DNA of 37,606 bases from Gammaproteobacteria bacterium. GTDB lineage: Bacteria > Pseudomonadota > Gammaproteobacteria > Steroidobacterales > Steroidobacteraceae. How positions within the stretch are numbered: the stretch's first letter is position 1; the number at the start of each line of letters is the position of its first letter. A program made the position numbers and the translations under genes. A model generated the notes under the pieces. That model did no database searches. It saw only the letters and a program-made list of their open reading frames with translations, and was not told the DNA's origin. Location of the stretch: positions 1-37,606 of the forward strand of contig VEPJ01000085.1 of assembly GCA_012026925.1 (NCBI GenBank), in the 5' to 3' direction. Shown here one piece after another: positions 21,264 through 23,999 of the stretch.

Positions 21264-22666
21264 GCGTCGTCGACTGGACGCTCACCGAGACCGCGTCGGC
21301 GATTGCGGAACGCAGGATTTCGAGCGTCGAGGTTGTTGCCGAGCACCTGCGGGCCATCGAGGCGTGGCAGCCGCACGTGAATGCCTTCGTGAGCGTCTTC
21401 GCGGAGCAGGCGCTCGATGCGGCGCGTCGCGCCGATGATGCCCTGTCGACGGGGCGAGGCGTCGGGCCGCTGCACGGCGTGCCGCTCGCTCACAAGGACA
21501 TGTTCCAGCGGCCGGGACGGCGCAGCACGTGCGGCTCGCGCGCATCGCCGCCTCCATTCACGGCATCGACCCTGCTCGAGAGGTTCGATGCGGCCGGGGC
21601 GATCGAGGTGGGTGCGTTGAAAATGGCGGAGTTCGCGCTCGGTCCCACCGGTCACAACGCGTTCCTCGGCGATTGCCGCAATCCCTGGAATGCGGCCCAT
21701 GTGTCGGGCGGTTCATCGAGCGGCGGCGGAGTCGCGGTCGCCGCGCGTCTCGTGTGCAGCAGCCTGGGTTCGGACACGGGAGGGTCCGTGCGCCTGCCCG
21801 CGAGCGCTACCGGGGTGCTGGGGCTGAAGCCGACCAACGGCCGCGTCACCCGCGCGGGGATGATGCCACTCGCTCCGTCGGTGGATGTCCCCGGCATCTT
21901 CGCGCGCTCGGCCCGGGACGCAGCTGTCGTGCTCCGGATCGCGGCGGGTCACGATCCTCGTGATGCTCGCTCGAGCTCGCGACCGGTGCCCGACTATGCG
22001 CTCGCATTCGCGCGTGGCATCGAGGGACTGCGCGTCGGCGTCCCGGAGAACTTCTTCCTGGAGGATGTGGAACCCGATGTCGAGGTGGCGCTCGCCGAGT
22101 CGAGGCGCGTGCTCGAATCACTCGGGGCGCGACTCGTGACGGTGCGAGTGCCCCGACCGGAGCCGCTGACCGAGCTGAGTCGCGCGCTCGTCTACGCCGA
22201 AGCCTCGGCGGTTCATTCGACCTGGCTGCGCGATCACGCGGCCGGTTATTCGCCACAGGTCCGCGTTCGGGCCGCCACTGGATTCGCCATTCCCGCGCCC
22301 ATCTATCTCCAGGCGCAGGCCCTCCGGCCGCTCCTGTTGTGGCGGTTCGTGCAGGCCGTGTTCGACGACTGCGACGTGCTGCACCTGCCGACGCTCGGAA
22401 TGGCGGTGCCGACGCGGGCCGAGACGGACGTGGGCAGCGCCGCAGCGATGTGGGACAAGATCGCGCGTCTCGTGCGGTGCACGGCCCCGTTCAATTACCT
22501 CGGATTGCCGGCCATCTCCGTGCCCTGTGGGTTCACGCGCAACGGTCTGCCGACCAGCTTCCAGGTCGTGGCGCGGCCGTTCGCGGAGTCGACGCTGCTG
22601 CGGGTCGCGCACGCGTTCGAGGGCGCGACGGACTGGCATCGGCGCGCGCCGCCGTTGCCGACCTAG
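21260..22666 (+). CDS. Amidase of the amidase-signature family
   Basis: 468 residues from GTG 21260. The Ser-cisSer-Lys triad is intact: K79 in PLAHKD, S152 in SGGSSSGGG, and nucleophile S176 in GSDTGGSVRLPA. GVLGLKPTNGRVTRAGMMPLAPSVDVPG follows, and the C-terminal YLGLPAISVPCGFTRNGLPTSFQVVARP is typical. It hydrolyses an amide, possibly a ureido or carbamoyl compound; the substrate cannot be told from sequence. It is not a confident GatA, since no gatB is near. The GTGA overlap with the small upstream gene makes a two-subunit enzyme plausible. The ORF track frame extends upstream to 21104 without support. Confidence 0.9.
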   Translation: MSVVDWTLTETASAIAERRISSVEVVAEHLRAIEAWQPHVNAFVSVFAEQALDAARRADDALSTGRGVGPLHGVPLAHKDMFQRPGRRSTCGSRASPPPFTASTLLERFDAAGAIEVGALKMAEFALGPTGHNAFLGDCRNPWNAAHVSGGSSSGGGVAVAARLVCSSLGSDTGGSVRLPASATGVLGLKPTNGRVTRAGMMPLAPSVDVPGIFARSARDAAVVLRIAAGHDPRDARSSSRPVPDYALAFARGIEGLRVGVPENFFLEDVEPDVEVALAESRRVLESLGARLVTVRVPRPEPLTELSRALVYAEASAVHSTWLRDHAAGYSPQVRVRAATGFAIPAPIYLQAQALRPLLLWRFVQAVFDDCDVLHLPTLGMAVPTRAETDVGSAAAMWDKIARLVRCTAPFNYLGLPAISVPCGFTRNGLPTSFQVVARPFAESTLLRVAHAFEGATDWHRRAPPLPT

Positions 22667-22706
22667 GGCGGTGGCGCGCTCTAGCCGCGCGTTGCGCGTG
22701 CCTGGC

Positions 22707-22819
22707 GCCTTGCCGTCCGGAGGAGGACGACAGGGCGTCGCGCCACATGGACGTGGCGCGCGAGCCCCCAGGGATCCGGGTTCACGGCGTCCCTGTCGTC
22801 CTCCTCCGGACGGCAAGGC
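22707..22819. repeat. Long palindromic intergenic element (29-base perfect arms, internal hairpin)
   Basis: The arms 22707-22735 and 22791-22819 are perfect reverse complements over 29 bases (gccttgccgtccggaggagg...). The 55-base interior contains a second hairpin, cgcgccac-atggac-gtggcgcg (22739-22760), then agcccccagggatccggg and ttcacggcgt. Beyond the arms, weaker complementarity continues (gcgttgcgcg on the left against gcgtcgcgtg from the right). It sits between the convergent amidase and CoA-transferase genes, so bidirectional termination is likely, but the structure is far larger than a terminator needs and has no T run. I recall palindromes with a similar catgga...ttcacggcgtc core in other gammaproteobacterial intergenic regions; that is memory, not a search. 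No other copy is in this window. The flanks 22667-22706 and 22820-22838 hold no gene. Confidence 0.85.
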
Positions 22820-22838
22820 ACCGAGCTGACACGCGACG

Positions 22839-23999
22839 CTAGTACGCGCCTTCGCGCTTGAGTCGCGCGAGCGCGGCGTCGTCGTAGCCGACGCTGCGCA
22901 GCACTTCCTCTGTGTGCGCGCCGAGCGCGGGAACGTGGAAATCGGCGCGGCCGGGCTCCTCTGCGAACTTGATCGGGAGCCCGATGTGTTCCTGCCCGAG
23001 ATCGTCCACGAGGCGCATGCCGCGAGCGTTGGCCTGGGGATCGTCGAAGGCCTCGCGCAGGTTCTTTACGGGCGCGAAGCAGATGTCGCGTCCCTCGAAC
23101 CATTCGACCCACTCGGCCTGCGTCCGCGTCGCGAAGACGCCCTGCAGGAAGTCGATGACCGGCTGCTGGTGCGGGCCCGGTCCGCGCGCGCAGAGATCGA
23201 TGAGGTCGGGGCGGCCCCATTCGGTGAGCAGGTTGCGCACGAACTTGGGTTCCTGTCCGCCGAGCACGACGTGCCGGCCGTCCCGCGTGCGGTAGATGCG
23301 GTAGAACGCGCCGCCGCCCCAGGTGCGCTCGTGCTGCGGGACCGGCGCGCGTTTCTCGACGAACACCGGTCCGAGCACGTTCGGCAGCCAGGCCAGCGCC
23401 GCGTCGTGCATGCTGATGTCGAGGCGGTCGCCATGCCCGGTCTTCTCGCGCCGGTAGAGCGACATCAGCACCCCGGCGAGGCCCATCGAGGCGGCGGCGA
23501 AGTCTGCCACCGGGACGTGAGGCATTGCCGGCTGGCCGTCCTGTCCCAGGTTGACGCTGATCGTTCCCGCGTACGCCTCGCAGGCGAGGTTGTGGGCGGG
23601 AACGTCGCGATAGGGGCCGGTCTGCCCGAAGGCCGTGAGCGAGCAATAGATGACGCGCGGATTGCGCCTGCTCACGGTCTCGTAATCGAAGCCGAGCTTC
23701 GCCGCGACGCCCGGGCGGAACGCCTCGATGAACACGTCCACGGTCCCGGCGATCCTGAGCAGCGCCTCGCGCCCGGCCTCCGACTTCAGGTTGAGGCTCA
23801 CGCTCTTCTTGCCGCGATTGAGATTGCGGAAGAAGACGCTGTGCCCGCGTTCGCCGAGGCCGATGTGGCGCCCGGGGTCGCCCTCGCCGGGCGGCTCGAG
23901 CTTGATCACCTCAGCGCCGTGGTCGGCCATGAGCTGCGACAGGTGCGGTCCCGGCAGGAACAGCGCAAGGTCGAGCACGCGCACGCCTTCGAGCTTCAT
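22839..23999 (-). CDS. Class III (CaiB/BaiF) CoA-transferase, copy 1
   Basis: Moves CoA between carboxylic acids, cytoplasmic, 386 residues. Family features: GVRVLDLALFLPGPHLSQLMADHGAEVIKLE at the N-terminus, VFFRNLNRGKKSVSLNLKS, VFIEAFRPGVAAKLGFDYE, and catalytic Asp166 in HVPVADFAAASMG (Asp169 in formyl-CoA transferase). The C-terminal half has FYRIYRTRDGRHVVLGGQEPKFV and LGAHTEEVLRSVGYDD. Its ATG overlaps the stop of CoA-transferase copy 2 (TGATG), so it is the last gene of the four-gene minus-strand operon. Substrates unknown; GTISVNLG rather than the glycine loop of oxalate-specific members argues against a simple oxalyl role. Confidence 0.92.
   Translation of the reverse strand: MKLEGVRVLDLALFLPGPHLSQLMADHGAEVIKLEPPGEGDPGRHIGLGERGHSVFFRNLNRGKKSVSLNLKSEAGREALLRIAGTVDVFIEAFRPGVAAKLGFDYETVSRRNPRVIYCSLTAFGQTGPYRDVPAHNLACEAYAGTISVNLGQDGQPAMPHVPVADFAAASMGLAGVLMSLYRREKTGHGDRLDISMHDAALAWLPNVLGPVFVEKRAPVPQHERTWGGGAFYRIYRTRDGRHVVLGGQEPKFVRNLLTEWGRPDLIDLCARGPGPHQQPVIDFLQGVFATRTQAEWVEWFEGRDICFAPVKNLREAFDDPQANARGMRLVDDLGQEHIGLPIKFAEEPGRADFHVPALGAHTEEVLRSVGYDDAALARLKREGAY

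Follow-up and report, generated by a model that had tools for sequence, protein, structure and literature searches.

The question raised by this locus is whether the long palindrome lying between two convergent genes is peculiar to the site or one copy of a more widespread element and, if the latter, what such an element might do. In the window, by which we mean the whole 37,606-nucleotide stretch of DNA analysed, the palindrome consists of perfect 29-bp arms (P1) flanking an ordered core (Table 1). The two-level palindrome described by a sequence-only reading is real: the arms, the 8-bp hairpin and the loop ATGGAC are all found in the sequence, and the window holds no other perfect inverted repeat of at least 14 bp with a span of at most 150 bp. 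Between the P1 arms the core reads CGTCGCGCCAC-ATGGAC-GTGGCGCGCG-A-GCCCCC-AGGGATCC-GGGTTCACGGC-GT, and its part 3' of the 8-bp hairpin (22763-22790) is AGCCCCC-AGGGATCC-GGG-TTCACGGC-GT. For positions 22690-22840, RNAfold gave -116.6 kcal/mol against a mean of -71.2 for shuffled sequences (z = -10.3).

Table 1. Parts of the palindromic element and its immediate setting, in window coordinates
Feature	Position	Strand	Basis
P1 left arm, 29 bp, perfect complement of 22791-22819	22707-22735	+	sequence
P2 hairpin, pairs 22736-22762 and 22737-22761, stem 22739-22746/22753-22760	22736-22762	+	RNAfold; compensatory changes at all variable pairs (family alignment)
P2 hexaloop ATGGAC (ANGGAY, CsrA-type), closing pair C22746-G22753	22747-22752	+	loop profile
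Invariant A, linker P2/P3	22763	+	family alignment
P3 hairpin, GCC 22764-22766/GGC 22786-22788, CCC 22767-22769/GGG 22778-22780	22764-22788	+	consensus structure
P3 loop AGGGATCC (AGGGA, CsrA-type), family hexaloop plus 2 nt	22770-22777	+	sequence
P3 5-nt bulge TTCAC (family consensus YYNRC)	22781-22785	+	consensus alignment
Invariant GT, linker P3/P1	22789-22790	+	family alignment
P1 right arm	22791-22819	+	sequence
Covariance model R1 match, 70.3 bits, E 6.8e-16 (291-kb search)	22728-22799	+	covariance model
172-bp intergenic stretch with element, missing from G006 orthologous site	22667-22838		comparison
Left neighbour, amidase (PF01425), end 40 bp before P1	21260-22666	+	domain match
Right neighbour, CoA-transferase family III (PF02515), convergent, end 19 bp after P1	22839-23999	-	domain match

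The core that the earlier reading had given for palindromes of gammaproteobacterial intergenic regions, catgga(t/c)g...cagggat...ttcacggcgtc with variable arms, exists and is class-wide. By pattern and by covariance model, further copies are present in the genome of origin and in relatives from its genus and family, while the reversed control pattern gave 0 matches. A scan of GTDB genomes returned at least 119 stretches with the core; nearly all of the matches listed are from Gammaproteobacteria, and they include Xanthomonas, Stenotrophomonas, Luteimonas, Marinobacter, Microbulbifer, Methylotuvimicrobium, Ectothiorhodospira, Pantoea and Alteromonas. One match in Caldithrix (L039) has an odd spacing and looks like chance. 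Among 377 Gammaproteobacteria genomes drawn, 34 carried the strict core and none the control. Whole-genome counts of a short exact core were 14 in Marinobacter guineae, 87 in a Luteimonas and 405 in Methylotuvimicrobium buryatense, whose congeners have 73-259 each; xanthomonads hold about 25-90 copies each. The covariance model found 24 copies in the genome of origin, the assembly of which is incomplete, and 8-33 in each of eight congeners, so that the whole genus is positive, while other families of the order gave at most one weak match. It also matched 100 times in 400 kb of M. buryatense, a sample picked around known copies whose density is not the genome average. No copies were found in E. 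coli, and a phage-borne element was rejected because IMG/VR contained none, its phage matches being chance only.

As far as seen, the family is confined to Gammaproteobacteria. Three plasmids carry the element. A related copy (L271:2501-2556) lies about 110 bp 3' of, and antisense to, a haloalkane dehalogenase gene on pDCA, a conjugative plasmid of the alphaproteobacterium Ancylobacter; it is near ISAs1 and Tn3 transposases and may have travelled together with the dehalogenase gene. A known RNA family was rejected, as no family in Rfam 15 reached the gathering score for the window or for 18 further loci; weak matches of the window to micro-RNA, SRP and RAGATH-31 families fell below gathering and are ascribed to the long stem. 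The core sequences were absent from the full-text literature searched, the coverage of which is partial and leaves absence from print unproven.

RNAalifold, applied to 33 copies from about 25 genera, shows the conserved form to be a single-strand three-way junction, composed of the long variable stem P1 and the hairpins P2 and P3. The consensus has 36 pairs, 31 of them with compensatory changes on both sides; in the trimmed alignment 90.2% of cells are paired under the named structure, and the covariation score is 0.681 as compared to 0.196 for shuffled alignments and at most 0.157 with slid partners. P1 is followed without a linker by P2, then by an invariant A, P3, an invariant GU and the return of P1. 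P3 itself comprises an invariant GCC/GGC, a 5-nt YYNRC bulge, three apical pairs that co-vary between TA and CG and between CG and AT, and a loop, which in the window is 8 nt long because of a 2-nt insert. The sequence-only reading had called agcccccaggga...ttcacggcgt unpaired, and here it must be corrected, as this segment makes up P3 in the family consensus; its expectation of a conserved core with co-varying arms agrees with the family alignment. What look like two sequence classes, ..GACCG..CGAGCC..GTC and ..GGGUG..CAAGCC..CCC, reduce to co-variation of the pairs 28-87, 29-86, 30-57 and 31-56. The bulge reads TTCAC, TTTAC, CTTGC or CTCGC in orthologous copies. Three Pseudomonas loci (L074, L097, L098) have a variant with a long P3 stem in which CCGTGA pairs with TTCACGG, the latter sequence being kept while its pairing differs.

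These results bear directly on the alternative that no family exists and that the palindrome is a rho-independent terminator, imperfect or long, or else an inverted duplication of local origin. Its place between convergent genes would suit such a reading; however, the class-wide core and the compensatory changes refute it, and around the window element we found neither promoter-like nor terminator-like sites, and no T run or T tract. The terminator was rejected for want of a T run after the G+C-rich hairpin, and we consider this whole explanation highly improbable, in line with the earlier view that the element is more than a terminator.

Which strand matters was addressed through mismatched pairs of the outer arms, counted per copy beyond the inner ten pairs. 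On the + strand, G.T exceeded A.C by 40:17 in other gammaproteobacteria (p = 0.0016), and by 33:14 in M. buryatense and 49:9 in Xanthomonas, where copies are not mutually independent; the excess was not significant in the window genus (27:21) or in Stenotrophomonas (14:11). A looser count of 172:48 took in inner pairs and related copies, and the stricter per-copy test is weaker. The excess favours a folded + strand, as RNA or as single-stranded DNA (ssDNA) alike.

Within that strand, both P2 and P3 are capped by a C-G-closed ANGGAY hexaloop with N free. The P3 profile, anchored solely on AGCC(12)TTCACGGC, has A-N-G-G-A in M. buryatense, with each fixed position in 45-47 of 47 copies and N being T in 26, G in 11, C in 6 and A in 4; a common reading there is UACANGGACGUA. 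For the window genus, the fixed letters of this loop (A, G, G, A) are each present in 21/21 copies with N variable, and the P2 loop has A in 32/36, a free N, then G in 31, G in 29 and A in 32. The two GGA motifs are separated by 23-24 nt. CsrA selects by SELEX the consensus RUACARGGAUGU, with ACA and GGA conserved in 100% of ligands, which are mostly hexaloops with mostly four or fewer contiguous pairs, and the protein can span two sites that are separated by 10 to 63 nt, most effectively by more than 18 (PMC7652899). The loops of the element correspond to this SELEX site: it has ANGGA in hairpin loops and two sites within 10-63 nt, a distance open to bridging by a CsrA dimer. The genome of origin has csrA, as do 33 of the 34 element-positive and 297 of the 343 element-negative genomes of the same draw, a co-occurrence that fits CsrA, though weakly, the gene being common in any case; the one exception, G229 (98% complete), is a fragmented assembly of 270 contigs and gave no csrA match. 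CsrA does not explain the YYNRC bulge, the AGCC or the GU.

Two observations touch on the same subject. A family relative (G019) has ten CsrA-family matches, an unusually high number. Furthermore, M. buryatense contains a second abundant repeat (L158-L177, e.g. L159:1637-1715 and L171:3564-3660), which reads GCC-ANGGAT-GGC-GTGAAT followed by a hairpin with an AGGA loop, forms mosaics with the first and likewise has GGA in hairpin loops.

Among RNAs that bind CsrA or RsmA, the element resembles CsrB/C, RsmX/Y/Z and RsmU in carrying GGA within hairpin loops, at two or more sites per RNA and with a spacing suited to the dimer. It differs from them in that its two sites are held in a fixed junction and that tens to hundreds of copies are dispersed, with no promoter of its own seen and no Rfam match. 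The TwoAYGGAY RNA motif of Rfam also has two hairpins with GGA-type loops; it gave no match at the gathering threshold in the 18 loci and the window, nor any to the window copy at E<=10. In Xanthomonas, RsmU is reported to be a single conserved sRNA derived from an mRNA, and no homologues of CsrB or RsmX/Y/Z were found there (PMC7694677).

The genomic setting was examined with a trained, home-made gene caller, for which some gene starts are doubtful. Copies are intergenic and near gene 3' ends and stop codons, with 0/52 inside genes in M. buryatense and 3/134 elsewhere, and they favour convergent contexts, a point that the sequence-only reading had proposed to check (43 convergent versus 9 divergent, background 104:107). 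This distribution, together with the very stable stem, would suit the explanation that a long hairpin alone acts at 3' ends, as a bidirectional transcription barrier, as protection of mRNA 3' ends or as a gyrase-type DNA site in the manner of BIMEs, the core mattering little. Such a function would, however, leave unexplained the strict core, the two identical degenerate loops, the invariant A and GU and the strand asymmetry, and the window copy lacks a T tract or terminator-like site; we regard it as unlikely.

Neighbouring copies are ordered. Adjacent copies stand in (-,+) order in 24/24 clusters of the window genus, 9:0 in Stenotrophomonas and 13:2 in others; in Xanthomonas the ratio is 28:15 inside alternating arrays, and M. 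buryatense has no order preference. Seven Xanthomonas loci (L028, L031, L058, L062, L075, L078, L108) are BIME-like arrays of 4-6 copies in strict alternation, with a unit that recurs at intervals of roughly 300-490 bp. The copy nearest to a stop codon is, in the window genus, antisense to its gene; single copies in tandem context are so by 9:1, as are nearly all members of pairs. Outside this genus orientation has no consistent bias (30:29). It follows that in the window genus the gene's own 3' UTR has the complement, without GGA, which complicates a simple 3'-UTR decoy model, and that, from order and antisense rule together, read-through from one of two convergent genes would run through an antisense copy before reaching a sense one. 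Promoter signals were not enriched in the spacers of paired copies.

In its organisation the element resembles the REP/BIME/REPIN repeats of the GTAG and CGTC superfamilies (Di Nocera et al., 2013, PMC3733652): it is a dispersed intergenic palindrome of uneven copy number, with opposite-orientation dimers and arrays, at gene 3' ends and between convergent genes. It differs in size and shape, being a three-way junction of about 110-150 bp where a REP is a single hairpin of 20-40 bp, and in having ANGGAY hexaloops, freely variable arms and no conserved unpaired GTAG or CGTC tag. No GTAG tag is conserved in the 33-sequence alignment; CGTC does precede P2 in the window genus, but conservation does not extend beyond that genus, and the first two bases of the motif are paired and co-vary (columns 30-57 and 31-56). 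CGTC REPs combine an unpaired CGTC tag with a stem of 8-9 bp, a loop of 4-5 nt and a CCA tail, a description that the element, with its hexaloops, does not fit. CGTC REPs, too, have no linked transposase, and in Halothiobacillus neapolitanus REP dimers lie inside 41-bp palindromes whose consensus contains attcacg (PMC3733652); these palindromes are possibly a relative of the element. A subset of M. buryatense copies resembles MITEs in having terminal inverted repeats and TA-like ends, although outside this species no terminal repeats are shared, and no transposase was identified. Integron attC sites offer an analogy, as they too are palindromes at gene ends that fold in a strand-specific way and have variable arms, except that the conserved part is the apex in the element and the base in attC. 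Our leading interpretation, held at somewhat less than even confidence, is that the window palindrome represents a REP/BIME-like element dispersed between genes across Gammaproteobacteria, the selected form of which is a folded single strand, probably RNA, holding two candidate CsrA sites.

How copies arise and change can be read in part from orthologous sites. In one relative (G006) the two convergent genes directly adjoin each other and neither the element nor a comparable palindrome is present, which implies that the arms came with the insertion or arose after it, unless the entire stretch was lost from G006. That the element inserted into a terminator already in place was rejected, for want of such a palindrome at the empty site. 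The empty site has CTAG, as do both ends of the 172-bp insert (window 22663-22842); the motif overlaps the two stop codons and may thus be due to chance, and one case cannot establish a target duplication. Between orthologous copies in the genus, the core is 90% identical and the first 20 nt of the arms 63%, and diverged arms still pair, out of register beyond the edge of the covariance model. In one orthologous couple (L234:2931-3000 and L235:3326-3395, genes 93% identical) the arm segments are largely different yet complementary. Complementarity could persist because pairing is selected for, or because template switching copies one arm from the other. In M. buryatense, 22/71 copies are embedded in units of some 160 bp with TATAC(C/T)..(A/G)GGTATA at their boundaries, each motif having a background of about 1%, and the other copies fall into several unrelated arm families on one core.

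These features are also what would be expected of a selfish or mobility signal, that is, a folded + strand of ssDNA recognised by some recombinase or transposase, as RAYTs recognise REPs and REPINs, with loops, bulge and GU as protein contacts and gene-end effects incidental. The very high copy number (405 exact cores in M. buryatense) and patchy presence, the alternating Xanthomonas arrays and REP-like (-,+) dimers, the unrelated arm families and TA-bounded units, and the empty site in G006 would all fit, as would the strand asymmetry, which suits ssDNA too. A search with PF01797, however, placed no core within about 1.5 kb of any of 30 Y1 transposase loci, and the Luteimonas genome with 87 copies (G069) and a Marinobacter genome (G065) had no Y1 match at all; a RAYT-linked REP was rejected for this lack of association. 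Two outcomes had been named as fatal to the original proposal, a lack of further copies in relatives and a tie to a described transposon or RAYT-linked family, and neither was found. In the window genus, moreover, the arms of paired copies differ and their spacers are alike only at orthologous sites, so that the pair is not a transposed unit and this candidate was rejected, and orthologous sites keep the core while the arms diverge. We view a mobility signal as possible but doubtful.

The data show the family, its junction structure and its loop consensus. As judged from sequence, predicted CsrA binding is the best-supported function, though a tentative one, ahead of the ssDNA mobility signal and then of a hairpin-only 3'-end element. 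Of the options left open by the sequence-only reading, namely a dispersed element, a structured RNA or a protein-bound site, the best fit is a structured nucleic acid whose loops would bind protein, carried on a REP-like dispersed element. The working molecule would be the + strand, most likely as RNA, in which the junction may set the two GGA loops at a distance where one CsrA/RsmA dimer grips both, with P1 serving as a sequence-indifferent clamp that shields the junction. Such RNA, whether from neighbour read-through or as antisense RNA entering a gene end, might titrate CsrA or be regulated by it. The copies presumably spread by some non-RAYT route, about a third of the M. buryatense copies examined being in a MITE-like unit. 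The broader proposal, that these are class-wide bidentate CsrA/RsmA sites copied by a REP/MITE-like process and setting the free CsrA pool or marking read-through and antisense RNA at gene ends, is one we regard as conceivable rather than probable.

A junction with strong covariation, found class-wide and at very high copy number in a model methanotroph, and absent from Rfam 15 and from the literature searched, is worth naming in its own right. Should its loops bind CsrA, a global regulatory circuit would have in this repeat family a major component that is itself evolving, and lineages without known CsrB/RsmZ-type sponges, such as Xanthomonas, would gain a candidate. If they do not, it would still provide a test case of a palindrome that replaces its arms, continues to pair and keeps its core.
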